Below are positions 12,194 to 52,800 of a stretch of 64,000 nucleotides of DNA, one piece after another. The position numbers were made by a program, and so were the translations under genes. The notes below the pieces were generated by a model, which saw nothing but the letters and a program-made list of their open reading frames with translations, had not been told where the DNA came from and did not search any database. Every line of letters begins with the position of its first letter. Position 1 is the stretch's first letter. The stretch spans positions 1-64,000 of the forward strand of contig NZ_SKBU01000007.1 in the NCBI RefSeq assembly GCF_004337705.1. The letters run 5' to 3'. This stretch comes from Rubrobacter taiwanensis (lineage in GTDB: Bacteria; Actinomycetota; Rubrobacteria; Rubrobacterales; Rubrobacteraceae).

Positions 12194-13117
12194 ATGAAAC
12201 GCGTACTCTCGTTATTGGTGGCGCTCACTCTGGCGGTTACGGTCGCCGGGTGCGGCGGAGCTGCGGGTGACGGTGGCGAGGGCACGAGGATAGCGCTCTC
12301 CATCTCCACACTGAACAACCCGTTCTTCGTGACGCTGCGCGACGGGGCGCAGGCGGCGGCGGACGAGGCCGGGGTGGAGCTGATCGTGGCCGACGCCCAG
12401 AACGATGCCTCCCGGCAGCAGAACGACATCCAGAACTTCGTCACCCAGCAGGTGGATGCCATCCTGGTGAACCCGGTGGATTCCGACGCCGTGGTCCCGG
12501 CGGTCGAGGCGGCCAACCAAGCGGACATCCCGGTCCTGGCGCTGGACCGCGGCGCTTCGGGCGGCGAGATCGTAACCACTATCGCCTCGGACAACGTTCA
12601 GGGCGGCCGGCTCGCCGGGGAGGAGCTGATCCGGCTCGTCGAAGAGGGACCGGTCGTTCAGCTCGAAGGCATCCCCGGCACCTCGGCGGCCCGGGACCGG
12701 GGGCAGGGCTTCCGGGAAGCGATAGAGGCCCAGGACGCCGTCGAACTCGTCGCCAGCCAGCCGGCGGACTTCGACCGGAGCGAGGGGCTGAACGTGATGC
12801 AGAACCTGATCCAGGCCAATCCGGACATAAGGGGCGTCTTCGCGCAGAACGACGAGATGGCGCTCGGCGCGGTCCAGGCACTCGGCGACCGCGCGGGGAG
12901 CGAGGTGATCGTGGTCGGCTTCGACGCCATAGAGGACGCGATCGGGGCCATCCGGGAGGGCAGGATGAACGCCACCATCGCCCAGCAGCCGGAGGAGATG
13001 GGGCGTCTCGGCGTCGAGAATGCTATAAAGGCCATCGAAGGGGAGCGAGTCCCGGAGGAGATCCCCGTCGAGGTTAAGCTGGTAACGCAGGAGAACGTGG
13101 AGGAGTTCGCGGAGTAG
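12194..13117 (+). CDS. rbsB: Ribose ABC transporter substrate-binding lipoprotein
   Basis: A 307-residue periplasmic-binding-protein fold (type 1) protein anchored as a lipoprotein: signal peptide MKRVLSLLVALTLAVTVAGC with the lipobox Cys at residue 20. The mature part starts with ISTLNNPFFVTLRDGAQAAA, and contains AQNDASRQQNDIQNFVTQ and VGFDAIEDAIGAIREGRMNA, all typical of RbsB. The ATG follows AAAGGAGATCGCA. It binds the sugar outside the membrane and delivers it to RbsC. Confidence 0.93.
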   Translation: MKRVLSLLVALTLAVTVAGCGGAAGDGGEGTRIALSISTLNNPFFVTLRDGAQAAADEAGVELIVADAQNDASRQQNDIQNFVTQQVDAILVNPVDSDAVVPAVEAANQADIPVLALDRGASGGEIVTTIASDNVQGGRLAGEELIRLVEEGPVVQLEGIPGTSAARDRGQGFREAIEAQDAVELVASQPADFDRSEGLNVMQNLIQANPDIRGVFAQNDEMALGAVQALGDRAGSEVIVVGFDAIEDAIGAIREGRMNATIAQQPEEMGRLGVENAIKAIEGERVPEEIPVEVKLVTQENVEEFAE

Positions 13118-13121
13118 CGGC

Positions 13122-14027
13122 TTGGCGGAGGTCTTCGTAGCAGGCTCCATAAACCAGGACTTCGTGCTCCGGGTGGAGCGCCGCCCGCAACCCGGCGAGA
13201 CGGTCACCGGCGCCGAGCTCTCCACCCTCCCCGGCGGCAAGGGGGCTAACCAGGCCACGGCCGCAGCCCGCCTGGGGGCCTCGGTCGCGATGCTGGGCCG
13301 GGTCGGGGAGGACTCTTTAGGCGAGGCCATGCTCCGTAACCTGCGCGAGAAGGGCGTGGACTCAAGCCGGGTGGAGGCCATCCCGGGTATATCCACCGGA
13401 GCGGCGTTCATCACCGTGACCCCGGACGGGGAGAACGCCATCGTGGTCTCGCCGGGGGCGAATCACCGCCTGATGCCGGAGGATGTGAGCGCGGCCGCGC
13501 AGGACATCCGGGCCGCGAGGGTGCTGGTGGCCCAGATGGAGCTGCCCGTCGAGACGGTAGCGCGGGCGGCGGAGGTCGCCGCCTCCGGCGGGACGCGTTT
13601 CGTGCTGAACCTGGCCCCGATGCGCGAGGTCCCGGACGGGCTGCTGGAGATCCCAGACCCCCTGGTCGTCAACGAGCACGAGGCCGCGTTCCTGCTCGGT
13701 ACGGAAGTCGAGCCGGTAGAGGATGCGCGGGAAGCCGCCGGGAAGCTGCTGGAGCTGGGACCGCGCTCGGCCGTGATCACGCTCGGGGCCGCCGGGGCGG
13801 TCTTCGCGGGCGGCGGGAAGACCGGCCACTTCCCGGCTCCGGAGGTGGAGGTGGTGGATACCACGGGCGCGGGGGATGCGTTCGTGGGGGCGCTCGCCGT
13901 GAAGCTGGCCCGGGGAGACGCTTTGGGCGACGCCGTCTCCTACGCGGTGCGGGCCGGCTCGGCGGCGGTCACGAAGCCCGGAGCGCAGGGCTCGCTCCCC
14001 ACGCCGGAGGTCGTGGAGCGGTTGTGA
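13122..14027 (+). CDS. rbsK: Ribokinase
   Basis: A 301-residue PfkB-family kinase that phosphorylates D-ribose to ribose 5-phosphate. It shows the N-terminal GSINQDFVLRVERRPQPGET segment, the substrate-binding LPGGKGANQATAAARLG and the anion-hole/catalytic motif DTTGAGDAFVGAL with the base Asp near residue 251. It starts with TTG, four bases after the rbsB stop. The stop overlaps the rbsD start (GTGA). Position inside the ribose operon supports the ribose specificity. Confidence 0.93.
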   Translation: MAEVFVAGSINQDFVLRVERRPQPGETVTGAELSTLPGGKGANQATAAARLGASVAMLGRVGEDSLGEAMLRNLREKGVDSSRVEAIPGISTGAAFITVTPDGENAIVVSPGANHRLMPEDVSAAAQDIRAARVLVAQMELPVETVARAAEVAASGGTRFVLNLAPMREVPDGLLEIPDPLVVNEHEAAFLLGTEVEPVEDAREAAGKLLELGPRSAVITLGAAGAVFAGGGKTGHFPAPEVEVVDTTGAGDAFVGALAVKLARGDALGDAVSYAVRAGSAAVTKPGAQGSLPTPEVVERL

Positions 14028-14413
14028 GAAAGGGGGGCATCCTGAACGCACAGCTCGCCGGCGCGCTGGCCCGGCTGGGCCACACGGACCTCGTGGTAGT
14101 CTGCGACTGCGGGCTGCCGGTCCCGGACGGTCCGGAGGTGGTGGATCTCGCCTTCAGGTTCGGCACTCTCTCCTTCGAGGAGGTTCTCAGAGGGCTCCTG
14201 GGCGAGCTGGTCGTCGAGCGGGCGACGGCCGCGCTGGAGGTCAGGGAGGCCAACCCCGGCTGTTACCGGCTGCTAAAGAGCGAGCTGGGGGGCTTGGATC
14301 TCATCCCGCACGAGCAGCTGAAGCTCCTGGTAAGGGAGGCGAAGCTGGTGGTGAGGACGGGCGAGGCGCGGCCGTACGCGAACGTTATCCTGCGCTGCGG
14401 CGTGCCCTTTTAG
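14024..14413 (+). CDS. rbsD: D-ribose pyranase
   Basis: A 129-residue RbsD/FucU-fold protein converting beta-pyranose to beta-furanose ribose, the form ribokinase uses. The start MRKGGILNAQL and His20 in RLGHTD match RbsD (catalytic His20), and the C-terminal YANVILRCGVPF is the second family motif. GTG start overlapping the ribokinase stop. Last gene of the operon; in Escherichia coli rbsD comes first. I see no convincing intrinsic terminator in the 69-bp gap that follows. Confidence 0.93.
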   Translation: MRKGGILNAQLAGALARLGHTDLVVVCDCGLPVPDGPEVVDLAFRFGTLSFEEVLRGLLGELVVERATAALEVREANPGCYRLLKSELGGLDLIPHEQLKLLVREAKLVVRTGEARPYANVILRCGVPF

Positions 14414-14482
14414 CCGGCGGTCCCGGCGGGTAGGTTAACCAGGCAGGCGGTTCTCAGAGCAGGTTTTCAGGAGGGAGCTTCT

Positions 14483-15430
14483 ATGCGCGCGATGGTGATT
14501 GCGGACTTCGGAGGGCCGGAGGTCTTCGAGCAGCGGGACGTCGAGCGTCCCGAGCCCGGGCCGGGCGAGGTCCTGGTGCGGGTTGTCGCCTCCGGGACGA
14601 ACCCGGTGGACGCCAAGATCCGGGCCGGAGCCATCCCGGTCGTGGAGCCGCCCGCCGTGATCGGCTACGACGTTTCCGGGGTTGTGGAGGAGGCGGGGCC
14701 TGGGGTGGACGACCTCCGGCCGGGCGACGAGGTCTACTTCACGCCCGAGATCTTCGGCAACCCGCACGGCAGCTACGCCGAGTACGTGGTCGCTCCGGCG
14801 AGCATCGTGGCGCTCAAGCCCGCCGGCCTGAGCCACGTGGAGGCCGCGGCGGTTCCTCTGGCGGGCGGTACGGCGTACGAGGCCCTGATCCGGCGTCTTG
14901 AGGTACGGCCCGGCGAGACGGTGCTCATTCACGGCGGGGCCGGGGGCGTCGGATCGTTCGCCGTCCAGATAGCGAAGGCCGCCGGGGCGTATGTGATCGC
15001 GACCGCCGGACCTTCCAACCAGGAGACTTTGGGCGAACTCGGGGCAGATGTGGCGGTAGACTACCGGAGCCAGGACTTCTCGGAGGCCGCGCTGCAGGAG
15101 ACCGGCGGCGAGGGGGTAGACGCCGTCTTCGACGCGGTCGGCGGACAGCTCGTGAGAAGCCTGGAGGCGACGCGGCCGTTCGGGCGGCTGGCGAGCATCC
15201 TGCCGATCCAGGGAGACCTCACCCACGCCTATCTCAACAACCAGACCATTTACGGCGTCTTCCTGACCCGCGAGCGCCGGCGGCTGGAGGAACTGACGCG
15301 GCTCATCGAGCAGGGCAAGATGCTGCCTCTGGTGGATGAGGTGCTGCCGTTGGAGCACGTTAGCAGGGCTCACGAGCGGCTGGACTCCGGACACGGCCGC
15401 GGTAAGGTCGTGCTGGAAGTGTCCGGGTAG
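14483..15430 (+). CDS. NADP-dependent quinone oxidoreductase-like MDR protein
   Basis: A 315-residue medium-chain dehydrogenase/reductase without the catalytic zinc ligands, resembling quinone oxidoreductases. An N-terminal GroES-like domain (VVASGTNPVDAKIRAG, VIGYDVSGVVEEAG) is followed by a Rossmann domain with HGGAGGVGSFAVQIAKAAGA near residue 150. The ATG follows GGAGGGAGCTTCT. Likely reduces quinones or enones with NADPH; the physiological substrate is unknown. It stands alone between the ribose operon and the LCP gene. Confidence 0.88.
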   Translation: MRAMVIADFGGPEVFEQRDVERPEPGPGEVLVRVVASGTNPVDAKIRAGAIPVVEPPAVIGYDVSGVVEEAGPGVDDLRPGDEVYFTPEIFGNPHGSYAEYVVAPASIVALKPAGLSHVEAAAVPLAGGTAYEALIRRLEVRPGETVLIHGGAGGVGSFAVQIAKAAGAYVIATAGPSNQETLGELGADVAVDYRSQDFSEAALQETGGEGVDAVFDAVGGQLVRSLEATRPFGRLASILPIQGDLTHAYLNNQTIYGVFLTRERRRLEELTRLIEQGKMLPLVDEVLPLEHVSRAHERLDSGHGRGKVVLEVSG

Positions 15431-15522
15431 GGAGACTGCAAAGCGCCCGGATCGTGAGGTATATTAGATGAACTTGAGGAGGCCGGAGCGGGCTCCGGCG
15501 CGAGGCCGTCTTGGAGAGGAGC

Positions 15523-16542
15523 ATGCAGAGATCCGGGACAGAAGAGGCGCGCTCTTCCGGGGAGAAACCGGAAGAGCGGCGCGGGCGGTGGTGGCGCTGG
15601 GGGCTCCTCTCGGCGCTCGGCGTCCTCGCGGTAATCGCCGGTGCTCTGGCCGGATTCATGGCGGCCGGCTCCCCGAACACCGGCGGTACCAACCCGATCG
15701 CCGAGATCGTCGGCGGCGACTCGCCCGGCATGTTCATAAGCCGCGAGCCCCAGTATCTGCTCTTCCTCGGGGCCGATGATGAGATGAACGAGCCCGAAGA
15801 GGCTTCGCGCTCCGACACAATAATCCTGATCCGCATCGCGGGGGAGGGTATATCCATGCTCTCCATCCCGCGGGACACGCGGGTCCACATCCCCGGCTAC
15901 GGATATGACAAGATCAACCACGCCTTCGCCTACGGCGGGCCCGAGCTCATGCTCCGGACCGTCTCCGGGTTTACCGGCATAGAGGTGGAGGACTACGCCA
16001 TCGCCAACTTCGAGGGGTTGCGGGAGGTGGTCGAGGCGATGGGCGGGGTAAGGGTCAACGTTCCCGTGGAGGTCGAGAAGCGCGCCTACCCCGGCGGCCC
16101 GATGATAAGGCTGGAGCCCGGCATCCAGACCCTCAACGGGGAGCAGGCCCTGGCCTACCTGCGCTGGCGGGCCGACTCCCAGGGCGACATCGGGCGCGTC
16201 AAGCGCCAGCAGGACTTCGTTTTCCGCGTCTTCAATCAGGCGTTCTCCCGCGAGAATATAGACCGCCTGCCGGAGGTAGAGGAGGCCGCGCTCAGCAACG
16301 TCGAGACTAACATGACGCGCAACGAGCTCATAGCGCTCGGTGCCCGGGTCAAGGCGCTCAGGGAAGAGGATGGCAGGATAAAGATCGAGGCCGGAACCGT
16401 CCCCGGCCACGAGCAGACGCTCTACTCGGAGCCGGCCGGGATGTACCTGAGCTTCTGGGTCCCGGATATGGTGGAGTTCCAGCAGGTCTTGAGCGAGACG
16501 GTCAAGCCGCCGGAGGAGCCTGAGGCGGCGAGCGGCGGTTAG
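15523..16542 (+). CDS. LytR-CpsA-Psr (LCP) family cell wall polymer ligase
   Basis: A 339-residue LCP protein: charged cytoplasmic N-terminus, one membrane helix at about residues 25-46 (WGLLSALGVLAVIAGALAG), then the extracellular LCP domain with SDTIILIRI, SIPRDTRVHIPGYGYDKINHA and LNGEQALAYLRWRADSQGDI. The conserved Arg and Asp residues that bind polyprenyl pyrophosphate are present. Such enzymes attach glycopolymers to peptidoglycan. Start: ATG 15523 with GGAGAGGAG close upstream; TTG 15511 is possible. The leader contains an AT-rich TATATT (15460-15465) and a palindrome (15482-15499). Confidence 0.88.
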   Translation: MQRSGTEEARSSGEKPEERRGRWWRWGLLSALGVLAVIAGALAGFMAAGSPNTGGTNPIAEIVGGDSPGMFISREPQYLLFLGADDEMNEPEEASRSDTIILIRIAGEGISMLSIPRDTRVHIPGYGYDKINHAFAYGGPELMLRTVSGFTGIEVEDYAIANFEGLREVVEAMGGVRVNVPVEVEKRAYPGGPMIRLEPGIQTLNGEQALAYLRWRADSQGDIGRVKRQQDFVFRVFNQAFSRENIDRLPEVEEAALSNVETNMTRNELIALGARVKALREEDGRIKIEAGTVPGHEQTLYSEPAGMYLSFWVPDMVEFQQVLSETVKPPEEPEAASGG

Positions 16543-16753
16543 TGCCCGCACCTCTTCTGTGGCGACCGCCGGCGAAGCTGAGCACGATCACACCGGGCGT
16601 TATGAAGAGGGCGGTGAAGATCACGTAGGGAGATTTGGCTCCCGGTCAGCCCGTAGGCGCGCCCGGGCCGCCCCGGCAGGCGGCCCGGCTGCGATTGCTG
16701 TCCGGCTGTGGCCTTGAGAGTGCGTACCGGGCCGAGTAGCCACCCTCCAGGCT
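16543..16753. other. Intergenic region between convergent LCP and OsmC genes
   Basis: This 211-bp gap holds a strong GC hairpin (16663-16688) and, on the minus strand at about 16549-16640, a short open stretch encoding a hydrophobic segment (VIFTALFITPGVIVLSFAGG followed by RHRR). That stretch has a GTG but no good ribosome binding site and follows directly after an in-frame stop, so I do not call it a gene. It could be a decayed membrane-protein fragment. Confidence 0.4.
16663..16688. terminator. GC hairpin between convergent genes, possible bidirectional terminator
   Basis: CCGGGCCGCC, a six-base loop and GGCGGCCCGG form a perfect 10-bp stem. It lies between the LCP stop (16542) and the OsmC stop (16754), where transcripts from both sides end. 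There is no T-tract on either side, so it would not be a classical intrinsic terminator. Confidence 0.5.
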
Positions 16754-17197
16754 TTAGCTCTCCAGAGACGCTTCGAGCCGGATGTCCACGTTGCCGCGCA
16801 GGGCGTTTGAGACCGGACAGCCCTGCTCGGCCTCCTCGGCGGCTGAGCGGAAGTCCTCGGCCGTGATTCCTGGCACCCGCCCCCGCACGCTGAGGTCCAC
16901 GCGCGATATCTTCACTCCGTCCGGGATCTCGTCCAGCGCGCAGACCGCGCTCACCTCCAGCCGCTCCGGCGGGGTCTCCCGGCCCTCCAGCACGTGTGAG
17001 AGGGCCATGGCGTAGCACCCGGCGTGGGCTGCGGCTATCAGTTCCTCGGGGGAGGTCTTGCCGTCGGGACGCTCGGTGCGGGCCGGCCAGCTTACGGGCA
17101 GCTCTCCCAGCGCGCCACTGCCCCCGGTGAGACGCCCGGTGCCGCGGGCGAGACCGCCCTCCCATACCACCTCTGCTCTGCGTTCCGCCAGCGCCAT
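16754..17197 (-). CDS. OsmC/Ohr family peroxiredoxin
   Basis: A 147-residue OsmC-fold thiol peroxidase that would detoxify organic hydroperoxides. The two redox cysteines are seen: Cys61 in AHAGCYAMALSH and Cys127 in EQGCPVSNALRG. Other family features are GKTSPEELIAAAHAG and the Glu-rich stretch before the second Cys. The ATG follows AAAGGAGGCGAAT, an excellent ribosome binding site. The wording favours the OsmC branch over Ohr. Divergent from the NlpC/P60 gene at 17368. Confidence 0.9.
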   Translation of the reverse strand: MALAERRAEVVWEGGLARGTGRLTGGSGALGELPVSWPARTERPDGKTSPEELIAAAHAGCYAMALSHVLEGRETPPERLEVSAVCALDEIPDGVKISRVDLSVRGRVPGITAEDFRSAAEEAEQGCPVSNALRGNVDIRLEASLES

Positions 17198-17257
17198 ATT
17201 CGCCTCCTTTCGTCGAACACTGCGAGAAGATACTACCAGAGGTCTCCCGGCTCCACG

Positions 17258-17276
17258 GAAATTGTGAAAAAATTTC
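17258..17276. promoter_or_regulatory. AT-rich dyad in the OsmC / NlpC-P60 divergent region
   Basis: GAAATT, seven bases and AATTTC form an inverted repeat in an unusually AT-rich island of this GC-rich sequence. It lies 61 bp upstream of the OsmC start. It could be a peroxide-responsive regulator site or a promoter element; no regulator is identified. Confidence 0.3.
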
Positions 17277-17307
17277 AGAATTCTCTAAAGTTTCGTTACG
17301 CGAGGCC

Positions 17308-17329
17308 CAATAAACGTCTATATTTATTG
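17308..17329. promoter_or_regulatory. AT-rich dyad upstream of the NlpC/P60 gene
   Basis: CAATAAA, an eight-base spacer and TTTATTG form a 7-bp inverted repeat 39 bp before the TTG start at 17368. TATATT at 17319-17324 inside it could be a -10 element. Either a promoter/operator or the leader hairpin of the NlpC/P60 transcript. Confidence 0.35.
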
Positions 17330-17367
17330 CGATACGGTAACGGGCCCGTGGTTCCTGGAGGGGGCGA

Positions 17368-18276
17368 TTGAAGAACGGTTTTTCTCTGGCGCTGATCGCG
17401 CTTCTGCTCGCGGGGGTAGTAGGGTTGGCTGCGGGCCCGGCGGAGTCGGCCCGGTACGTGCAGGTGGTAGACAACGAGACTCCTGGGCGCTTTGCGGCCT
17501 CCGAGAGCTGGGGCGCGAGCTCCTACAGCCCGGAGCGCTACGGAGAGAACTACCGCTTTGCGACCCCCAAGCCGGTAGCCGACGCCGCGCGCTACAAGGT
17601 CAGGATACCGGCCACGGACCGCTACAGGGTCCATGCCCGCTGGCCTGCAAATCCCGGCTATAATCCCAGAGCGCGGATAGGGATTCACACGACCTCCGGC
17701 TGGCAGTGGGTGACCGTCGATCAGCGGCAGAACGGCGGCCGGTGGGTGCATCTGGGGACCTTCAGGATGGCCGCTGGGGACGGTTGGAAGATCCGGGTTG
17801 CCCGCCGCTCTGGCAGCGAGGGCTACATAATCGCCGATGCGGTGCGGGTTGCGCGGGTGACCGAGACGCAGCAGACCGCCTCGGGGGGGCAGGTTACCGG
17901 GAAGGAGATTCTGGCCGAGGCGCGGACGTGGCTCGGCGTCCCGTACCAGTATGGGGGTACCTCGCGCCAGGGGGTGGACTGCTCCGGCCTGACGCTCAAG
18001 GTCTACGAGAAGTTCGGCATCCGGTTGCCGCGCACGGCGCACGACCAGTACCACTCCGGTCCGGGGACGAAGGTCGCCAAGACCGAGCTCCGGCGCGGAT
18101 ATCTGGTCTTCGGCTACGCCGACGGGTACGGTTCGGGCATCCAGCACGTCGGCATCGTCACCGGCGACGGGCGCATGATCCACGCTCCCGCTCCCGGCAC
18201 CGTGGTCCGCTACGACGACCTGCCCAACGGCTGGTACAACATCCTGGGCGTCAAGCGCATCGTGCCGCCGGCGTAG
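17368..18276 (+). CDS. Secreted NlpC/P60 peptidoglycan hydrolase with golvesin-like domain
   Basis: A 302-residue exported protein. Residues 1-28 form a Sec signal peptide. Residues about 29-164 match the golvesin C-terminal-like beta-sandwich (IPATDRYRVHARWPANP, WVTVDQRQNGGRWVHLGTF, IIADAVRV). Residues about 177-300 are an NlpC/P60 domain with catalytic Cys205 in GVDCSGLT, His260 in IQHVGI and a third polar residue near His272. It would cleave peptidoglycan stem peptides; the golvesin-like part may bind the wall. TTG start after GGAGGGGGCGA. No c-di-AMP riboswitch-like leader is apparent. Confidence 0.88.
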   Translation: MKNGFSLALIALLLAGVVGLAAGPAESARYVQVVDNETPGRFAASESWGASSYSPERYGENYRFATPKPVADAARYKVRIPATDRYRVHARWPANPGYNPRARIGIHTTSGWQWVTVDQRQNGGRWVHLGTFRMAAGDGWKIRVARRSGSEGYIIADAVRVARVTETQQTASGGQVTGKEILAEARTWLGVPYQYGGTSRQGVDCSGLTLKVYEKFGIRLPRTAHDQYHSGPGTKVAKTELRRGYLVFGYADGYGSGIQHVGIVTGDGRMIHAPAPGTVVRYDDLPNGWYNILGVKRIVPPA

Positions 18277-18309
18277 TAAACGGCCCCGCTTCAGGCTACC
18301 ATTAGGCTC

Positions 18310-18615
18310 ATGAAGGTGGACTTCCTGTACTATGAGGACTGCCCGTCGCACGGCCGGGCGTTGGAGCGCTTGCGGCGGGTGATCTCCGAGGAGGGTGTCG
18401 AGGCGGAGGTCGAGGTGACGGAGGTGAAGACCGAGGAGCAGGCCGCCGAGCTGCGCTTCGTCGGCTCCCCGACCATTCGCGTGGACGGAGAGGACATAGT
18501 TCCGCCGCCGGATGGTGCGCCCTACGCTCTCACCTGCCGGGCCTACACGCTGGAGGACGGGCGAGTCTCCCCGCTGCCCTCTGAGGAGAGCATCCGGCGG
18601 GCGTTGCGGCGGTAG
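18310..18615 (+). CDS. Thioredoxin-fold (glutaredoxin-like) protein
   Basis: A 101-residue protein beginning MKVDFLYYEDCPSHGRALERL, the opening of a small thioredoxin-fold family that has one redox Cys (residue 11) at the usual active-site turn instead of CxxC. FVGSPTIRVDGEDI contains the fold's cis-Pro after Ser. The C-terminal region has YALTCRAY and then a charged helix. Function is unknown; members often lie near MerR regulators or mercury-related genes, which are not present here. Tandem with another thioredoxin-fold gene 62 bp downstream. Confidence 0.75.
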   Translation: MKVDFLYYEDCPSHGRALERLRRVISEEGVEAEVEVTEVKTEEQAAELRFVGSPTIRVDGEDIVPPPDGAPYALTCRAYTLEDGRVSPLPSEESIRRALRR

Positions 18616-18677
18616 CGGCTCCTCGTCCGAGCGTTTACCCTGAGATCCGGAGAGAGTCCGAGCGACGGAGGTGAACC

Positions 18678-30285: not shown

Positions 30286-31494
30286 CTAAGCCCCGTAGCG
30301 GTTGAGCTTGAGCGCGTGGCCCATGAGCAGGCCCATGACCTCCTCCGCCGGGAAGGTGCCGAGCACGCCGCCGGCGCAAGCCCGCTCACCGAAGCCACCG
30401 GCGGTGGGCACGGCCCACCGCGAGTGCAGCAGGAAGGGGACCGGGTGCCAGGAGTGGCTGCGCAGCGCCGCCGGGGTGGAGTGGTCGCCGGTGACCGCGA
30501 ACGCCGCCGGACCTGCCTCCAGAATCTCCGGGATCAGGGCGTCGACCTCCTCTATGACCCGCGCCTTGCGCTCGAAGTCTCCATCCTCGCCGGCGCTGTC
30601 GGTAGGCTTGATGTGAACGAAGAAGAAGTCGTATCCTTCCCAGCTCTCCCGGAGGGTCCGGATCTCGCCGGCTATCCCCTCGCCTTCCTGCAGCACCTCC
30701 ATCCCCGCGAGCCGGGCGAGTCCCTTGTACATCGGGTAGCTCGCGATGGCCGCGGCCCGGAGCCGGTACACCTCGTCGAACTTCGGCAGCGCAGGATGCA
30801 TCCCGAAGCCACGCAATAGCACCGTATTGGCCGGATGCCGGTCGCTCAGGATCTCGTTCGCCTGCTGCACGAAGGCGTTAGCCAGCTCGGCGCTGCGCCG
30901 GGCCTTCTGTGAGTCGGGGTCGGTGGGCCGGACCGGGAGCGGTTTCTTCCCGGTCTGCTGCGGGTCGGTGTCCGAGAGGGCGTCCGAGAGATCCTCGGCA
31001 CGGAACACCACGACTGCCCGGTGCTCCTTCTCCGGCACCACGAAGGTCTCCACCGGGGAGAGATCTACCTTCTCGTTCAGCAGCGCGGCCAGCTCCGAGC
31101 CGAGCTCGCTCGGGATGCGCCCCGCGCGCCGGTCCGTGATCTCACCGGTCTCGCTCATGGTGGCGAAGTTGATCCGGGCCGCAAGGTCGGTGTCCTCGAG
31201 CTCGAACCCGACGCCGAGCGCGCTCAGAACGCCCCGCCCCACCGGGTGCTGCAGAGGATCGTAGCCGAAGAGGGAGAGGTGCCCCGGACCACTGCCGGGG
31301 CTCACACCCGCCGCCACAGGCCGGATCAGACCGAGCTCCGAGCGGGCCGCGAGCGCGTCCAGGTTCGGGGTGCCGGCTGCCTCCAGCTCGGTCTTGCCGG
31401 CGGGACCCGGCAGCCCTCCCAGACCGTCCAGGACGAGCAGTACTATCTTCGATTCGGTGCGGACCGAAAGCTCTCGCATCAGGTTCAGGTCCAA
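30286..31494 (-). CDS. apgM: 2,3-bisphosphoglycerate-independent phosphoglycerate mutase, archaeal type
   Basis: A 402-residue alkaline-phosphatase-superfamily mutase interconverting 3- and 2-phosphoglycerate. The N-terminal LLVLDGLGG metal site, the nucleophilic Ser in SPGSGPGHLSLFGYDP, and C-terminal VTGDHSTPAALRSHSWHPVPFLL match the archaeal (aPGAM) branch. TTG 31494 follows GGGAGGCAGCC; an internal ATG lies five codons on. An open frame upstream to 32526 runs antisense through the MBL gene and is not part of it. Divergent from the MBL gene at 31591. Confidence 0.9.
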   Translation of the reverse strand: MDLNLMRELSVRTESKIVLLVLDGLGGLPGPAGKTELEAAGTPNLDALAARSELGLIRPVAAGVSPGSGPGHLSLFGYDPLQHPVGRGVLSALGVGFELEDTDLAARINFATMSETGEITDRRAGRIPSELGSELAALLNEKVDLSPVETFVVPEKEHRAVVVFRAEDLSDALSDTDPQQTGKKPLPVRPTDPDSQKARRSAELANAFVQQANEILSDRHPANTVLLRGFGMHPALPKFDEVYRLRAAAIASYPMYKGLARLAGMEVLQEGEGIAGEIRTLRESWEGYDFFFVHIKPTDSAGEDGDFERKARVIEEVDALIPEILEAGPAAFAVTGDHSTPAALRSHSWHPVPFLLHSRWAVPTAGGFGERACAGGVLGTFPAEEVMGLLMGHALKLNRYGA

Positions 31495-31590
31495 GGCTGC
31501 CTCCCTCGTAGTAGTTCGCTCCGGCTCTACGCCGGGAGAACAGCATAGATATAATGCCGGACGCAGGCAAGCTGCTGGACCGGAGGGCGG

Positions 31591-32493
31591 ATGAGGGTAG
31601 AGGTGCTGGATCTGAACTTCCTGGACCGGAAGGGACTTATCAGGGCGTTTCTGCTGCGGAACGGGGATTCCGCAGCGCTGGTGGAGACGGGGCCCGCCAC
31701 CGGTCTGGAGAGCCTCATGCGCGGGCTGGAGGAGCGGGGCGTGGCGCCGCGAGACGTGCGCCAGGTCTTCCTGACGCATATCCATCTTGACCACGCCGGA
31801 GCCTCTGGCACCCTGGCGGAGCTGCTGCCCGACGCCACCTTCTACGTGCACGAGGTCGGAGCCCCGCACATGATAGACCCCTCCAGACTCCTGAAGAGCG
31901 CCGGCCGTATCTACGGCGAGAATATGGAGGCGCTCTGGGGCGAGGTGCGCCCGCTGCCGGAGGATCGGCTGGTGAGGCTGAAGGGCGGGGAGCGGCTGGA
32001 GGCTGCCGGAGGTGAAGTGGTCGCCCACTACACCCCCGGGCATGCCTACCACCACCTCGTCTACCACGAGCCGGAGAGCGGCGCCATGTTCACCGGCGAC
32101 GTGGGGGGAGTGCGTATGCCCGCAGCGGCGTACGTCCGGCCGCCGATCGTGCCCCCGGAGTTCGACCCGGAGGCCTGGCAGGAGAGCATCCGGAAGATCC
32201 GGGAGATCTCGCCATCCTCGCTCTGGCTCACGCACGGTGGCGAGTTTGCCGACGTCGAGCGCCACCTGAACCAACTGGAAGATCGCCTGAGAAGCTGGGT
32301 GGAGTTCGTCGAACTGCGCCTGAAAGAGGGTATGGACGAAGAGGAGATCCTGGCCGATCTCCGAGAGTACGGCGATGCCGAACTGGCCGAACTCGGCGCC
32401 GATGAAGAGACGCGCCAGAGCTACGAGTTCGCCAGCGCGTACTGGATCGCGGTCTCCGGCCTGATGCGCTACTTCTCCAGGAAGGGGCGCTGA
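31591..32493 (+). CDS. MBL fold metallo-hydrolase
   Basis: A 300-residue metallo-beta-lactamase-fold hydrolase. The metal motif THIHLDHAG lies near residue 62, followed by a third-His motif HYTPGHAYHHLVY and GAMFTGDVGG. The last 80 residues are helical with a dimerisation-like tail (FVELRLKEGMDEEEILADLRE), as in RNase Z-like and glyoxalase II-like proteins. The ATG follows CCGGAGGGCGG. Substrate unknown. Divergent from the phosphoglycerate mutase gene. Confidence 0.88.
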   Translation: MRVEVLDLNFLDRKGLIRAFLLRNGDSAALVETGPATGLESLMRGLEERGVAPRDVRQVFLTHIHLDHAGASGTLAELLPDATFYVHEVGAPHMIDPSRLLKSAGRIYGENMEALWGEVRPLPEDRLVRLKGGERLEAAGGEVVAHYTPGHAYHHLVYHEPESGAMFTGDVGGVRMPAAAYVRPPIVPPEFDPEAWQESIRKIREISPSSLWLTHGGEFADVERHLNQLEDRLRSWVEFVELRLKEGMDEEEILADLREYGDAELAELGADEETRQSYEFASAYWIAVSGLMRYFSRKGR

Positions 32494-32617
32494 CCGGCCG
32501 GAGAACTTGTAATACCTGTAAGACATCTAGTAGTATGCCGGGCTATGATCGGGAGGAGGGCAGGCTCTCGGCCTTCTGGGGCTCTACGTGCGGAGGAGGC
32601 CTGAGGGGGGTACGTTC

Positions 32618-33679
32618 GTGCGGGGGTACGGGGTTGCGGTCATACCGGGAGACGGGGTTGGGCCGGAGGTAGTTGGGACGGCATGCAGGGTTTTGGACCG
32701 TGCTGGGGAGCTGTGGGGTTTTGAGCTCCGCTGGGAGATTTTCGACTGGGGGTGCGGGCGCTATCTCCGCACCGGGCGGGTGATGCCGCGGGACGGGCTG
32801 GATAGGCTGCGGGGGTGTGATGCGATCTTCCTCGGCCCCGTGGGGCATCCCACGGTACCCGACCGCATTCCGCTGGAGGGGCTATTGATTCCGATCCGGC
32901 GTGGCTTTGAGCAGTACGTGGATCTGCGACCCGCAAGGCTCTTCGATGGCGTCCGCTCTCCTATCCGCAACGTGCGGGGCGGGGAGATAGACTTCGTCGT
33001 GGTGCGGGAGAACAGCGAGGGGGAGTGTTCGGAGGTCGGGGGGCGGCTGCACCGGGGGACCCTGCGGGAGATGGCCGTGCAGGAGGCCGTCTTCTCGCGG
33101 CCCGGGCTGGAGCGCATCATGCGCTATGCCTTCGAACTCGCGCGCGAGCGCGGCGGTGAGCTGGCTTCGGCCGTTGCGGTGGACGGCATCACGCACACGA
33201 TGCCGCTTTGGGACGAGGTCTTCTCCGGGCTCGCGGAGGAGTATCCGGATGTACGGACCGTCCGGCACTCCGCGGAGGAGCTGGCGGCTCTCTTCGTGTT
33301 GCGTCCCCAGCAGTTCGACGTGGTGGTGGCCTCGAGCCTCCTGGGCGGCATTCTGGCCGATCTGGGTGCCGCCGTCTCCGGCAGTGGTGGCATGGCGCCT
33401 TCGGCCAGTCTCAATCCGGGGCGGGAGCACCCCTCGATGTTCGGGCCCCGGCACGGGCCCGTGCCGGAGGCGGCCGGGAGGGGGACGGCCAATCCTCTGG
33501 GGCAGGTCTGGTCCGGGGCCATGATGCTGGAGCACCTCGGGGAGAGGGAGGCTTGTGAGGGGATCATGGCCGCTCTGCAGCGCGTCCTGCCCCACACGGA
33601 GGGGCTTACCCCGGACCTGGGCGGCTCGGCGCGCACCGCGCAGGTGGCGAACGCCCTGATGGGTGCCCTGGAGTGCTAG
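32618..33679 (+). CDS. Tartrate/D-malate dehydrogenase-like protein with replaced catalytic residues
   Basis: A 353-residue member of the isocitrate/isopropylmalate dehydrogenase fold closest to tartrate dehydrogenase: VAVIPGDGVGPEVV, GPVGHPTVPDRIPLEGLLIPIR, VREN..GE, MPLWDEVF, SASLNPGREHPSMFGPRHG. In the family, Tyr and Lys do catalysis and Asp bind Mg/Mn. Here the EGEY position is Cys137, the TKSN Lys is Ala187 (SAVAVDG), and the first Asp of GDILSD is Gly244. Asp199 (WDE) and Asp248 remain. GTG 32618 follows AGGGGGGT; GTG 32588 is possible. Convergent with a GntR gene (abutting stops). Confidence 0.85.
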   Translation: MRGYGVAVIPGDGVGPEVVGTACRVLDRAGELWGFELRWEIFDWGCGRYLRTGRVMPRDGLDRLRGCDAIFLGPVGHPTVPDRIPLEGLLIPIRRGFEQYVDLRPARLFDGVRSPIRNVRGGEIDFVVVRENSEGECSEVGGRLHRGTLREMAVQEAVFSRPGLERIMRYAFELARERGGELASAVAVDGITHTMPLWDEVFSGLAEEYPDVRTVRHSAEELAALFVLRPQQFDVVVASSLLGGILADLGAAVSGSGGMAPSASLNPGREHPSMFGPRHGPVPEAAGRGTANPLGQVWSGAMMLEHLGEREACEGIMAALQRVLPHTEGLTPDLGGSARTAQVANALMGALEC

Positions 33680-34432
33680 CTACCCCTCCGGGGGCGCCAG
33701 GCCTTCTCCGGAGGGGTCGAAGCCCAGCTCCGAGGCCCGCTCTGCCACGTGGTGCCACATGGCGCGGGATGCGCTGCCGGAAGACCGGCGCTTCACGGCG
33801 CCGTATATCTCCGCGTGGGACTCCAGCTCCCACTTTGAACGCTCCAGAGACCTGAGCCCGGCGCGGCGGGCTTCGAACAGCAGGGGCTCGATGCCGCGGC
33901 AGATGGAGAGGTACAGCGGGTTGCCGGAGGCGCGGGCCAGAGCTTCGTGGAACGCCATGTCTGCAAACACCCGCCCCCTCAGGCTGTCTCTCTCTATGTG
34001 AGACTCCAGATTCCGCAGGGAAGCCTCGAGCCGCTCCAGATGCTCATCCCCGGCCCGCCGCGCCGCCAGCGCCGCCATCTGCGGCTCGAAAGCCAGCCGC
34101 ACCTCCATCACGGCGCTCAGGGGCACGTCCGCGCTTCTGTCCCAGATCCCCGGTGGGTCCTCCCGCGCGTCGGGGTCCGCTACGAACGAGCCGCGGCCCA
34201 TCTGGATCTCGATCAGACCCATCGAGCTCAGCACGCGCAGCGCCTCCCGCACCGAAGATCTGCCAACCCCGAACCGGTCACACAACATCCGCTCAGAAGG
34301 CAGCCGGTCTCCGGGCCGAAGTATCCCCATTCTTATCTCGTCGGAGAGGGCCTCGACGATCTCGTCTACCACACCTCTCCGCCCCGAACTCCCTCTGAAG
34401 TACATGCTTGCAGGTCGCGTTGTGGCGGACAT
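33680..34432 (-). CDS. FadR-type (FCD) GntR transcriptional regulator
   Basis: A 250-residue GntR-family regulator. The winged helix covers residues about 20-90 (ILRPGDRLPSERMLCDRFGVGRSSVREALRVLSSMGLIEI), and the FCD effector domain covers 100-240 with ADMAFHEALARASGNPLY, holding conserved Asp/His metal ligands. The effector is probably a small organic acid. Its stop codon abuts that of the dehydrogenase-like gene (TAGCTA), so they are neighbours, not operon partners. The ribosome binding site sits in a hairpin (34436-34453). Confidence 0.88.
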   Translation of the reverse strand: MSATTRPASMYFRGSSGRRGVVDEIVEALSDEIRMGILRPGDRLPSERMLCDRFGVGRSSVREALRVLSSMGLIEIQMGRGSFVADPDAREDPPGIWDRSADVPLSAVMEVRLAFEPQMAALAARRAGDEHLERLEASLRNLESHIERDSLRGRVFADMAFHEALARASGNPLYLSICRGIEPLLFEARRAGLRSLERSKWELESHAEIYGAVKRRSSGSASRAMWHHVAERASELGFDPSGEGLAPPEG

Positions 34433-34435
34433 TTC

Positions 34436-34453
34436 CCCAAGCTACGGCTTGGG
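34436..34453 (-). promoter_or_regulatory. Leader hairpin covering the GntR ribosome binding site
   Basis: CCCAAGC, loop TACG and GCTTGGG form a perfect 7-bp stem that ends three bases before the ATG of the GntR gene. On the minus strand the downstream arm supplies the GGGG just before the start. It could act as an operator for autoregulation or as a translation-controlling hairpin. Confidence 0.4.
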
Positions 34454-34461
34454 CGCCAAGT

Positions 34462-34490
34462 ATATTATCATGAGCTAATTCATATTGTAA
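34462..34490 (-). promoter_or_regulatory. Candidate promoter of the GntR gene
   Basis: On the minus strand, TTACAA (34485-34490), a 17-bp spacer and TAATAT (34462-34467) form a sigma70-like promoter in an AT-rich patch. It also contains the imperfect dyad ATGA-N6-TCAT (34470-34483), a possible GntR site. Transcription would begin about 25 bases before the ATG. Confidence 0.45.
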
Positions 34491-34503
34491 CCGGTGATCC
34501 GGC

Positions 34504-35901
34504 TCAGCCGCTCTCTTTGAGGGCGGCGATGACGTCCTGGAGGCCTTGCCTGGCGTCGGCGAAGAGCATCATGGTCTTCTCCTGGTAGAAGAGCGGGTTG
34601 TCCACACCGGCGAATCCGGGGCTCAGGGAGCGCTTGATAAAGATCACGCGCCGGGCGCTCTCCACGTCCAGGACGGGCATGCCGCTGATGGGGCTGTCCA
34701 GATTCGGGTCTTTGGCGGCGGGGTTCACCACGTCGTTGGCTCCGACCACGATGACGGCGTCGGTCTCGGGGAAGTCGGCGTTGATCTCCTCCAGGTCCAG
34801 GAGCTTATCGTAGGGGACGTCGGCTTCGGCCAGGAGCACGTTCATGTGTCCGGGCATCCTCCCGGCGACCGGATGGATGGCGAACCGTACCACCTTGCCC
34901 TTCCGCTCCAGCACCTCCACGAGCTCGGCGGCCAGCGTCTGGGCCTGGGCTACGGCGAGGCCGTAGCCGGGGACTATGATCACGGAGTCGGCGTCGTAGT
35001 TGAGCACGGCGGCCACGTCCTCCGGCGTCACGGAGTTGACCGGCTTCTCGTCCTCTTCCTTCTTCGCAGCGGCCGGCGGTGATGCGCCGACCCCCGCGAA
35101 GATGATCTTGTTCAGCGGCCGGCCCAGGGAGCTGCTCATAAGCCGGGTGAGGATCGTACCCGAGGCCCCGACCAGCGCCCCGGCGATGATCAGGACCTCA
35201 TTGCTCAAGAGGAAGCCGCTCATGGCCGCGGCGAGCCCGGTGAAGGCGTTCAGGAGCGAGATGACGATCGGCATGTCCGCCCCGCCGATGGGAATCACCA
35301 GCAGCACGCCGAGCGTAAGGGCTATGAGGAAGACGAGCCAGACGGAGAGCAGCGGCAGGGGCCCGCCCGCGAGGGCGTTGATGCCCAGCAGGACCGCCGC
35401 GCCCAGCAGCCCGGCGTTCGCCACCTTCTGGTAGGGGAAGGTTACGCTCCCGGCCAGGAAGAGCTCCTCCAGCTTGACGTAGGCGATGGCGCTCCCGGCG
35501 AAGCTGACGCTGCCGATCAGGATGCCGGCCAGGATGAAGAAGACGTCGGCCCGGTCGCCCGCCACCTGTCCGATGTGTATCTGGTAGAACTCCGCGAGCG
35601 CGATGAACGCCACCGCGCCGCCGCCCACCCCGTTGAAGGCGGCCACCATCTGCGGCATCGCCGTCATCGGCACCCTCACGGCCGAGACGTACCCGATCAC
35701 CGAGCCGATCGCTACACCGACGAGGATCTCCCAGTAGCTGACGATCCGCTGGTCCAGCAGCGTCACACCGAGGGCGATCGCCATGCCGATCGCAGCCAGG
35801 CTGTTGCCCGAGCGGGCCGTCTCCGGCGAGCGCAGCCGCCGCACGCCGAGGATGAAGAGCAAAGCCGCGAACATGTACGAGAGCGTCATGAAGGTGTGCA
35901 C
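34504..35901 (-). CDS. pntB: Proton-translocating NAD(P) transhydrogenase, beta subunit
   Basis: A 465-residue membrane subunit: about nine TM helices (residues 1-270), then the soluble NADP(H)-binding domain III with PGYGLAVAQAQ near residue 320, VRFAIHPVAGRMPGHMNVLLAEA, VVGANDVVNPAA and SLSPGFAGVDNPLFY. It couples hydride transfer between NADH and NADP+ to proton movement. GTG start, two bases after the alpha-2 gene stop, with GAGGAGG upstream; ATG four codons later is an alternative. Last gene of the pntA1-A2-B operon. Confidence 0.93.
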   Translation of the reverse strand: MHTFMTLSYMFAALLFILGVRRLRSPETARSGNSLAAIGMAIALGVTLLDQRIVSYWEILVGVAIGSVIGYVSAVRVPMTAMPQMVAAFNGVGGGAVAFIALAEFYQIHIGQVAGDRADVFFILAGILIGSVSFAGSAIAYVKLEELFLAGSVTFPYQKVANAGLLGAAVLLGINALAGGPLPLLSVWLVFLIALTLGVLLVIPIGGADMPIVISLLNAFTGLAAAMSGFLLSNEVLIIAGALVGASGTILTRLMSSSLGRPLNKIIFAGVGASPPAAAKKEEDEKPVNSVTPEDVAAVLNYDADSVIIVPGYGLAVAQAQTLAAELVEVLERKGKVVRFAIHPVAGRMPGHMNVLLAEADVPYDKLLDLEEINADFPETDAVIVVGANDVVNPAAKDPNLDSPISGMPVLDVESARRVIFIKRSLSPGFAGVDNPLFYQEKTMMLFADARQGLQDVIAALKESG

Positions 35902-47333: not shown

Positions 47334-48730
47334 CTAAGAGGGCCGGTAACGCTCGATGATCTCGGGCTTGATCCTCTTAAGCTCGCTCTCCGGGAAGTCC
47401 GCCAGAAGCTCCCAGGAGAGATCCAGCGTCTCCTCGATGGAGCGCCGCCGCGCCCCCTGACCCACGAGCCGCTCCTCGAACCTGTCCGCGAAGGCCAGAT
47501 AGCGGCGGTCGTCATCCGAGAGCGCCCCCTCCCCGACGATGGAGACCAGCCGCCGCAGCTCCTTGCCGCGCGAGAGGGAGGCGTAGAGCTGGTCTGCCAC
47601 GGCCCGGTGGTCTTCGCGCGTCTTGCCCTCGCCGATCCCCTCGTTCATCAGGCGGGAGAGGGAGGGGAGCACGTCGATCGGCGGGTAGATGCCGCGCCGG
47701 TCCAGCTCCCTGGACAGCACGATCTGGCCCTCAGTTATGTAGCCGGTTAGATCCGGGATGGGGTGGGTCACGTCGTCGTCGGGCATCGAGAGGATCATAA
47801 GCTGCGTCACCGATCCCGGCCGGCCCCTCACCCGCCCGGCCCGCTCGAAGAGGGAGGCCAGATCGGTGTACATGTAGCCCGGGTAGCCGCGCCTTCCCGG
47901 GATCTCGCGCCGTGCCGCCGACACCTCGCGCAGGGCTTCGCAGTAGTTGGTCACGTCGGCCAGGATCACGAGCACGTGCCGCCCCTCCTCCCAGGCGAGG
48001 TGCTCGGCGACCGTGAGCGCGGCGCGCGGGGTGAGCAGACGCTCGATGGTGGGGTCATCTGCGAGGTTGAGGAAGAGAACCGAGCGCTCCAGCGCGGCGC
48101 TGCCGGCGAAGCGGCGCCGGAAGAAGGCCGCCTCGCGCTGGGTGACGCCGATGGCGGCGAAGACCACGACGAAGCCCTCGTCGTCGCCGGGTACCCGGGC
48201 TCCCTCGGCGATCTGAGCCGCGAGCTCCATCGCCGGCAGCCCGAATCCGGAGAAGATGGGCAGCTTCTGGCCGCGCACGAGGGTGTTCAACCCGTCTATG
48301 GCCGAAACCCCCGTCTCTATGAAGTCCTCCGGATGGGCGCGGGCGTACGGGTTGAGGGGTTCGCCGTTGACGTCCCGGTAGTCGTCGGGGCTCAGGGGCG
48401 GGCCGCCGTCTATGGGATCGCCCGACCCGTCCAGAATGCGCCCGAGGAGGTTCTGGCCCACGGCCATCTTCGCGACCTCCCCGCGGGGCCTGACACTGGT
48501 GCCGGGCCGGTTGAGGCCCTGGGTGCCACCCAGAACCTGCACAACCATCCTGTCATCTTCGACCTCCAGGACCTGTCCCCGGCGCGTCTCCCCGGCCGGG
48601 GTGACGACGTCCACGAGCTCGTCGTAGCCCACCTCCCCGACGCGCTCGGCCACCAGCAGCGGTCCCGAGATGTAGGAGACCGTCCAGTACTCGACGGCGA
48701 AGAGCCCGTCCGCCGTTGTGATGCGGCCGT

Positions 48731-48734
<4 letters not shown>
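47334..48734 (-). CDS. atpB: V/A-type ATP synthase subunit B (non-catalytic)
   Basis: A 466-residue B subunit of the V/A-type ATPase. It shows [52 protein letters not shown] (degenerate P-loop), [19 protein letters not shown] and [20 protein letters not shown]. It forms the hexamer with subunit A. GTG/ATG start overlaps the subunit A stop by four bases. Final gene of the operon; usual subunit D does not follow it. Confidence 0.95.
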
Positions 48735-50517
<1,783 letters not shown>

Positions 50518-50521
<4 letters not shown>

Positions 50522-50859
50522 TGCTCAGCACCTCCTTCGAAGGTTATCTCGTAGCCCACGGCCTGCCAGAGCATCCGGGCGAGCCGCCGCTTGCGCTCTC
50601 TTCCGGCCTCCGCGCCCTCTCCGGCCGGGAGCGGCACGACGAGCGGTTCGGTCGTCTCGTCGAGCCTGCGAAGCAGCTTGCGGTCGAGGCGCGCGTGGTA
50701 CGGTTCGTGCACGGCTATGACGCCGCGCTCGCCGCGTTCGTCCACCAGCTCCCGCAGCTTTGCGGCGGTCTCCTCCGGGGAGCTCACCGCAACGGTCGAG
50801 GCCCCGGCGAGCCGGTAGCCGAGGGCGAGGTCCGGGGTCGTGAGCACCACGAGCCTCAT
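50518..50859 (-). CDS. atpF: V/A-type ATP synthase subunit F
   Basis: A 113-residue Rossmann-like central-stalk subunit F. The start [21 protein letters not shown] and later [13 protein letters not shown] match the family. It sits between C and A in the operon and overlaps both neighbours by four bases. Confidence 0.92.
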
Positions 50860-51974
50860 TCCGCTCCTGCCTCACCGCTCTCGGGGAGGATCATGCGCTT
50901 CCGGACCCTCTCGGGAGAGAGGTTGCGGGCCGCACCCTCCGCCAGAAGGCGCAGGTTATGCGCCTCGATCTGCTTGGCCGCGGCGTACGCCACGGGCAGA
51001 TCTATCCCGAGCTGATCGCCCCGGAGGAACAGGGCGGTGGCATCCCGCAGCCGGCGGGTCTCCAGCTCGTGCTGCAGCCCGGCCAGGTTCTGATCCTGCC
51101 CCCAGCGCTCCAGCGGCTCTTGCCATGCGCCCGGACCGGCCTCGGCGAGCGCGGCGGCCACTCCCGCGGCGTCGGGCCGCCGGATGGCCTCGTCGAGCGA
51201 CTCGGGCCGGACGGCCCCGCCCGGCAGGTAGACCTCGAGGTCGCCCGGCTGCGGCAGCCGCTCTATCTCGCCGCGGGCAAGGGCCTCGCGCAGCCGCAGC
51301 GCGGTGAGCAGGTTGCGCTCCGCTATCTCCCGGCCGAAGAGGCGTTGCAGAGCCTCGCTCCCGGGTCTCAGGCTCTCCAGAGCGTCCGAGGTCCGGCGGG
51401 CCCAGCCCGCAGTGACCCGGTGCTCCAGTGCGGCGAAGTCCTCGGTGCGCTCATACTCGGGCCAGGCGCGCCGCAGGGTGCGTGCCGTGTCCCAGTCGGG
51501 CAGCTGCCAGCGGACGAGCAGCTGAACCGCTGCGGCCAGCTCGCTCTGGCGGGCTACCTCGCGCACCAGCGCGTCGTTCAGGCTCCCCATCGGGAAGACG
51601 TATGCCGGCGTCTCCTCGGGGTCCGACCGCGTGGCGACCCCGCGCAGGAGCGTGAGAGCGTTGTGCAGGTCCCAGCGGGAGAGCAGCAGGTCCACAAGCT
51701 CCCGCGCGCTCCCGTCGTAGAAGGAGCGCATCTCCTCTAGTGCCCGGGCGAAGTGACGGCGCACGGCTTCGTGCACCCGCCGCGCGCCGCGCTGCCGGGT
51801 GATCGCAGCCTCCACCTCCGGACCGTAGGGGGTGGAGGCGAGCGCCCCCAGAATGCCGTCCACGTCCTTGCCGAGCAGCGCTTCGTAATCTGAACGGTGC
51901 AGAAGCCCGGCCTTGCGCACCCGCAGGCGCGTGTTGCCGTAGGTGAAGTCTGCGCCCGAGGATAGCAGCCTCAA
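50856..51974 (-). CDS. atpC: V/A-type ATP synthase subunit C
   Basis: A 372-residue all-helical V0D/AC39-type subunit linking the central stalk to the membrane ring. Recognisable segments are FTYGNTRLRVRKAGLLHRSDYEALL near the N-terminus, LLSRWDLHNALTLLRGVATR and EAHNLRLLAEGAARNLSPERVRKRM near the end. Overlaps E and F by four bases each. Confidence 0.9.
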   Translation of the reverse strand: MRLLSSGADFTYGNTRLRVRKAGLLHRSDYEALLGKDVDGILGALASTPYGPEVEAAITRQRGARRVHEAVRRHFARALEEMRSFYDGSARELVDLLLSRWDLHNALTLLRGVATRSDPEETPAYVFPMGSLNDALVREVARQSELAAAVQLLVRWQLPDWDTARTLRRAWPEYERTEDFAALEHRVTAGWARRTSDALESLRPGSEALQRLFGREIAERNLLTALRLREALARGEIERLPQPGDLEVYLPGGAVRPESLDEAIRRPDAAGVAAALAEAGPGAWQEPLERWGQDQNLAGLQHELETRRLRDATALFLRGDQLGIDLPVAYAAAKQIEAHNLRLLAEGAARNLSPERVRKRMILPESGEAGAE

Positions 51975-52570
51975 TGCCCCTCCCCGGTGATCTCCGCGAG
52001 CCGGCGGGCGTACCAGAGCCTGAGGCGGGGTTCGGCATTGGCCAGGCGCTCCTCGAAGGTGTTGCGCACCACGCGGCCGTCGCCGCTCTCCAGCACCGGT
52101 CCGCCGAGCGTCTCCTCGTGCGAGGTCTCGACGGCAAGTTCCGCGCCGGTCTCCCGCGCCAGCTCGGTGGCCAGGGCCTCATCGCGCGGGTCCACGCGCA
52201 GCACCCGGGCCTCCGGGAGGGCAGCGAGGCCCTCCCGGAGCAGGGTGCGGAACGCGGTGCGGTAGGCTGGCGTGCCGCGCAGGGCGGCGAGGCGGGAGCG
52301 CACCTCCTCCAGGAGCCGCTCCAGTGCCTCTTCGCGCGAGCCGTGCACGATGCGTGACGCCTCCAGACGGGCGCCGGCGACGCGGCGCTCGGCCTCGGCC
52401 CGGGCCTCGGCCTCGCGCGGCGGCAGCACCTCCTCCCGCACCGCCCGGGCTCTCTCGCGAGCCCGGGCGAGAATCTCCTCGGCCTCGGCCCGGCTCTCGG
52501 CTTCGAGGTGTTCGTTCTCCCGTCTCGCTTCGGCCTCGATGGAGGCCAGCAGGTTCTCCAGCGGGCTCAA
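51971..52570 (-). CDS. atpE: V/A-type ATP synthase subunit E
   Basis: A 199-residue peripheral stalk subunit: an Ala/Glu/Arg-rich coiled coil (residues 1-90) followed by a globular C-terminal domain with LPEARVLRVDPRDEALATELA and GGPVLESGDGRVVRNTFEER. It overlaps subunit C by four bases. Start ATG lies 10 bp after the subunit K stop. Confidence 0.9.
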   Translation of the reverse strand: MSPLENLLASIEAEARRENEHLEAESRAEAEEILARARERARAVREEVLPPREAEARAEAERRVAGARLEASRIVHGSREEALERLLEEVRSRLAALRGTPAYRTAFRTLLREGLAALPEARVLRVDPRDEALATELARETGAELAVETSHEETLGGPVLESGDGRVVRNTFEERLANAEPRLRLWYARRLAEITGEGH

Positions 52571-52580
52571 GGTCGCCCTC

Positions 52581-52796
52581 CTACAGGAGGAGGATGACCA
52601 TGGCCGCCACGGCGAAACCCAGGATCACCAGGGTCTCGGGGATGGCGATGAGCAGGATCGCCCGTCCCGTGAGCTCCGGCTTCTCCGCGATGGCGCCCAT
52701 CGCCGCGGCTCCGATGCGGCTCTGGGCCAGACCCGTGGCGATGGCCGAGAGGCCGATGGCTATGCCGGCCCCTATGGCGATAAGTCCGACTTCCAC
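52581..52796 (-). CDS. atpK: V/A-type ATP synthase subunit K (proteolipid, c-ring)
   Basis: A 71-residue single-hairpin proteolipid with two TM helices (about 4-36 and 45-71). Ion-binding Glu54 lies in IAIPETLVIL; Gln25 sits in the first helix (GLAQSRIG), 29 residues earlier, the same spacing as Gln110-Glu139 in Enterococcus NtpK from memory. GTG start after AAAGGAGTGAAGCA. It forms the rotor ring, and is shorter than the duplicated four-helix versions. Confidence 0.93.
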   Translation of the reverse strand: MEVGLIAIGAGIAIGLSAIATGLAQSRIGAAAMGAIAEKPELTGRAILLIAIPETLVILGFAVAAMVILLL

Positions 52797-52800
52797 TGCT

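Follow-up and report, generated by a model that had tools for sequence, protein, structure and literature searches.

A tartrate dehydrogenase paralogue in Rubrobacter taiwanensis that has lost its active site and is probably a pseudoenzyme

A folded tartrate dehydrogenase paralogue with a dismantled active site

Based on family assignment, structural comparison and an alignment of homologues, we have identified in the 64,000-nucleotide stretch of Rubrobacter taiwanensis DNA analysed here (the window) a gene for a tartrate dehydrogenase (TDH)-like protein which is probably a pseudoenzyme, that is, a non-catalytic, folded paralogue of TDH that is kept now or was kept until recently; we give this reading a probability of about 0.5. 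Judged from the sequences, the TDH active site of this folded paralogue has truly been lost, and with unusual thoroughness; so far this is seen in one genome.

The gene (32618-33679, forward strand) starts with GTG and encodes 353 residues. Its product matches the Iso_dh family of Pfam (PF00180; E 4e-67; 227 bits against a cut-off of 27) and belongs to that superfamily. The closest solved structure is the TDH of P. putida (3flk; alignment E 2e-94), which is also the best PDB match of the AlphaFold model (pLDDT 93.6; TM 0.94). A second, intact TDH is encoded on another contig of the same genome (C6); it is 61% identical to the window protein and aligns without a gap over about 348 residues, so that on sequence comparison the window gene is a paralogue of this enzyme. 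These matches bear out the assignment to the TDH/isopropylmalate dehydrogenase (IPMDH) type made in an earlier, sequence-only reading of this DNA. The C6 paralogue clears both NCBIfam equivalog models for TDH (TIGR02089 and NF006048) at 551 and 544 bits, whereas the window protein falls below both cut-offs (429 against 470.4 and 417 against 501). With characterised TDHs (TtuC/TDH, TIGR02089; 3flk) the window protein shares the fold, 45-61% identity, the substrate arginine triad and descent from the same type of locus with the same kind of GntR regulator, but it is devoid of the catalytic Tyr, Lys and Asn, of the metal-binding Asp244 and of most of the NAD loop, and its Asp220 has become Glu. 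The 3-isopropylmalate dehydrogenase LeuB has the same superfamily and fold and is 30-37% identical; it is not orthologous to the window protein, which groups with TDH and whose catalytic residues are lost.

The extent of the change was assessed against 101 TDH-clade sequences, taken from the same taxonomic family, from a scan of the contigs of species genomes and from more distant genomes. In this alignment 75 columns are invariant, and 19 of them are changed in the window protein (M55V, A74P, S85P, W87E, Y137C, T186V, K187A, S188V, N189D, D220E, N240S, D244G, I257G, N264S, E276G, S281P, A282V, D284E and I285A); when each homologue is left out in turn, the next-worst sequences change three and two such columns. 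Ten of the altered residues (Y137, K187, N189, D220, N240, D244, E276, S281, A282 and D284) are present in 101/101 homologues and replaced only here. According to the alignments with 3flk and with the homologues, the catalytic Tyr is replaced in Y137C (codon TGT, 33026-33028), the catalytic Lys, which acts in trans in the dimer, in K187A (33176-33178) and a metal-binding Asp in D244G (33347-33349), all on the forward strand like the other positions given here. The homologue alignment adds N189D (33182-33184), the conversion to Glu of the metal-binding Asp that comes in trans from the other subunit (D220E, 33275-33277) and the loss of an Asn of the cofactor/substrate site (N240S, 33335-33337). 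Of the catalytic Tyr, Lys and Asn together with the two cis and one trans metal-binding Asp residues of TDH, only D248 (33359-33361) is retained. The adenine loop of the NAD site, EPVHGSAPD, has become GPRHGPVPE (33443-33469; E276G, V278R, S281P, A282V and D284E), with H279 kept. By comparison with the homologues, in which they are invariant, the three substrate arginines are all present: R94 (32897-32899), R104 (32927-32929) and R130 (33005-33007).

The sequence-only reading had placed Cys137 (codon at 33026), Ala187 (33176), Asp189 (33182) and Gly244 (33347) exactly where we find them, and 3flk has the Tyr, the Lys, the Asn and the first Asp of GDILSD opposite these four residues. Its alteration of EPVHGSAP to GPRHGPVP falls at the same place in the 3flk alignment, and the retained fold and arginine cluster that it described agree with the presence of R94, R104 and R130 and with the TM score to 3flk. 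It had overlooked D220E, N240S, the adenine-loop changes S281P, A282V and D284E, and S85P and W87E; beyond the four substitutions that it named, six more cofactor, metal or catalytic positions are altered (D220E, N240S, E276G, S281P, A282V and D284E). The observation of active-site loss is thus correct but understated, as far as sequence can tell, and the TDH reaction is almost certainly impossible for this protein.

Origin and setting of the gene

The intact TDH gene of contig C6 belongs to a tctC-tctA-tctB-TDH-MR/MLE locus that includes a divergently oriented gene for a GntR/FCD regulator, and the relative G015 has the same tct-TDH-MR/MLE arrangement. This locus, in which the MR/MLE gene is mandelate racemase-like, is conserved between L114 (~12400-18620, contig C6) and L182 (6791-13284), and its gene content suggests a pathway for hydroxydicarboxylate uptake and oxidation in this family. 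A 31-bp near-perfect palindrome, CAGGTTGTACTGGTAGTACCAGTACAACCTG, lies between the GntR gene and tctC (L114:17746-17776, contig C6) and is likely to be the operator of the intact locus. We considered and rejected an operator shared with the window pair: the core of CAGGTTGTACTGGTAGTACCAGTACAACCTG is absent, at up to three mismatches, from the window and the rest of the contig searched. Likewise, a search for TGGTNNNACCA that allowed one mismatch at most found no copy near the window pair and no excess over chance, and TNGTNNNACNA gave no match around the TDH-like gene.

The TDH-like gene is followed by a convergent gene for a GntR/FCD regulator (33680-34432, reverse strand; PF00392 and PF07729), as the sequence-only reading had noted, and the stop codons of the two genes abut. 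This regulator is 55% identical to that of the C6 locus and 60% to that of G015 (52-60% over regulators of this type); of the 39 family genomes, only three carry the GntR type of the tct-TDH locus. In keeping with the FCD type, it retains D158, H162, H206 and H228, which are invariant with its relatives and which we take to be the FCD metal ligands. The window GntR and the regulator of the C6 locus are paralogues, and a link by ancestry between the window GntR and the TDH-like gene is therefore supported. By sequence, the window therefore holds a TDH and GntR pair from a tct-TDH-type locus without the transporter genes; both the tct and the MR/MLE partners are missing beside this copy. Candidate sigma-70-like promoters, recognised as consensus matches only, lie upstream of the TDH-like gene (32520-32549, forward strand) and of the GntR gene (34464-34491, reverse strand).

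The pair is bordered on the left by a gene for an MBL-fold hydrolase (31591-32493, forward strand) and on the right by pntB (34504-35901, reverse strand), two conserved flanks that are neighbours in many relatives, where a mere 45-165 bases or so separate them. Their junction (32493-34504 in the window) is a variable slot in the family: it is empty in several genomes (L170-L176) and elsewhere receives unrelated cargo of about 0.6-16 kb, such as, in L162, a region with PTS/sugar kinase and dehydrogenase-complex genes or, in L181, a 9.6-kb set in which genes resembling those for monooxygenases and chaperonins were recognised by eye alone. Since the MBL gene and pntB are adjacent in some relatives and enclose varied cargo in others, the TDH-like gene and its GntR are best seen as an insertion in a permissive slot. 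The TDH gene and its regulator would thus have been copied or acquired from a tct-TDH locus of the tartrate utilisation type and have come to lie in the slot next to pntB. Later substitutions in the TDH-like gene would have removed the catalytic residues (Tyr, Lys and Asn), a metal-binding Asp and the greater part of the NAD-binding loop, but left the fold and the arginine triad in place.

Selection or drift after the loss of catalysis

In a quick tree, the window and C6 proteins are placed among TDHs from their own taxonomic family (G015, G021 and G034), and the end branch of the window protein is 3-4 times longer than that of the C6 copy (1.28 versus 0.35). In a Tajima relative-rate count with Phytohabitans as the reference, the window protein has 65 changes and C6 has 25 (P 2e-5). 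No orthologue with the same changes was found in the 39 family/class genomes, among the matches obtained by scanning 84,980 species genomes or on plasmids, and selection for a new role therefore cannot be shown by conservation. The sequence-only suggestion of a dead paralogue used for binding or sensing, or endowed with new chemistry, is accordingly upheld for its family, paralogy and active-site loss, but not for a conserved new role.

These observations make it quite possible, if less than probable, that the gene is a relaxed relic: a redundant TDH duplicate that no longer has its transporter partners and is subject to drift. The open frame would then be explained by the GC-richness of the genome and by how recently decay set in. 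Such a relic would be expected to be a singleton on an accelerated branch (here about threefold) and to stand, as this copy does, without its tct and MR/MLE partners. The branch of the adjacent GntR is also somewhat long, about 1.6 times those of the others when the regulator is used as a rate control, a comparison made with no true outgroup. Amino-acid-changing substitutions run from AT to GC in 46 cases and in reverse in 24, and GC1 and GC2 of the gene are raised (0.75 and 0.51 versus 0.65-0.67 and 0.44-0.46), a pattern that GC-biased mutation would produce in a gene under relaxed selection. The open frame was rejected as a proof of function: at this GC content and at the divergences that apply here, a neutral simulation leaves the frame without a stop with a probability of about 0.1-0.4.

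The distribution of the changes speaks against simple decay. For this comparison, 14 invariant positions were assigned to what we take to be the catalytic and cofactor set. They are the equivalents of known residues of IPMDH and isocitrate dehydrogenase (IDH), drawn partly from PMC5241874. In this set 10 of 14 positions are altered, against 9 of the 61 other invariant positions (Fisher P = 6e-5), an enrichment to be read with the caveat that missing catalytic residues were the very reason for choosing this gene. A neutral simulation, run to the divergence that is observed (25% of the columns where four relatives agree) and started from the G015 sequence as a proxy for the ancestor, predicts about 3.5 catalytic changes where 10 are observed (P<=0.003), about 14 changes at other invariant positions against 9 (P ~0.07) and, among hydrophobic core columns, 8.5-10 that are broken against 4 (P 0.01-0.04). 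Columns that are 90-99% conserved are altered in 7 of 66 cases, less often than the strictly invariant ones. The aligned region has suffered no indel, and the branch omega, estimated from pairwise NG86 distances with dS near saturation, is about 0.31 for the window gene and about 0.13 for C6. Because the catalytic losses are concentrated and the core is spared, the fold looks selected after catalysis was lost, which favours a pseudoenzyme that is retained or was so until recently. Were the gene a relic after all, it would offer a snapshot of ordered loss, with the catalytic residues gone before the core.

Possible roles and other explanations

To our knowledge, regulatory pseudoenzymes in the decarboxylating-dehydrogenase superfamily are known only from the eukaryotic NAD-dependent IDH. 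Like the window protein, IDH3 beta and gamma and yeast Idh1 are non-catalytic paralogues in which metal-binding Asp residues are replaced and the fold is retained. In the human IDH3 alpha-gamma pair, metal and substrate are bound by Asp230, Asp234, Tyr126, Arg88, Arg98 and Arg119 of alpha and by Lys182 and Asp215 of gamma (PMC5241874). In the regulatory subunits the first two Asp residues are replaced, whereas the in-trans Lys and Asp are kept (PMC5241874); both of the latter are altered in the window protein (K187A and D220E), so that it departs from this definition, and a role as an IDH3-like activating subunit was set aside. Furthermore, IDH3 gamma keeps the ligand-binding Tyr that the window protein has lost, and the regulatory subunits are conserved across eukaryotes, unlike the window protein, for which we know of no orthologue.

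A pseudoenzyme of this kind might act in one of two ways. It could bind a C4-type dicarboxylate through R94, R104 and R130 and compete for it, or it could mix into dimers with intact TDH. In this family both subunits contribute residues to an active site, and the window protein would give neither the cis Tyr and Asp nor the trans Lys and Asp; a mixed dimer with the C6 enzyme would therefore contain two dead sites, and the window protein would act as an inhibitor. A comparison of segments did not bring out any special conservation of the dimer interface towards intact TDH. We consider it rather unlikely that a bacterial pseudo-TDH is held under selection to control tartrate metabolism by dicarboxylate binding or by such mixed dead dimers, but, if true, it would be the inhibitory counterpart of the IDH3 regulatory subunits. 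A bacterial TDH paralogue without the cis and trans halves of its composite active site would be a clean system in which to test dominant-negative dimerisation, or else to follow the passage of a duplicated enzyme from catalysis to binding.

A neofunctionalised enzyme is improbable. Here the pocket formed by R94, R104, R130, D248 and H279 with the new C137, D189 and E220 would act on a dicarboxylate in a different reaction, probably one that needs no NAD. The retained arginines, D248 and H279, the appearance of potentially reactive residues exactly at catalytic positions and the predicted intactness of the fold are compatible with this idea. The many changes to Gly, Pro, Ala or Val have the look of loss and not of redesign, and a conserved new motif is not definable from one sequence. 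Very improbable is a still-active dehydrogenase that uses alternative pocket residues: such an enzyme would fit the full-length family match and the strong fold prediction, but Tyr, Lys, Asn and the metal-binding Asp are kept in all 101 homologues, the protein falls short of both TDH cut-offs, and mutation of the equivalent metal-binding Asp residues impairs the activity of human IDH3 (PMC5241874). A sequencing or assembly artefact can practically be dismissed, for the genome is a draft in 57 contigs but the gene diverges by about 39% from every relative without a frameshift, has a normal GC3 (0.84), lies between intact genes and differs by multi-base codon changes (such as K to A and W to E).

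Other features of the window

The MBL gene is overlapped by a 746-residue open reading frame (30286-32526, reverse strand), which is an over-extended frame; the C-terminal portion is the phosphoglycerate mutase-like protein (PF10143/PF01676), and the N-terminal portion is antisense to the MBL gene. Further along the window lies a V/A-type ATPase gene cluster (47334-54753, reverse strand), of which the subunit at 47334-48734 was matched in Pfam and the others were recognised by eye.
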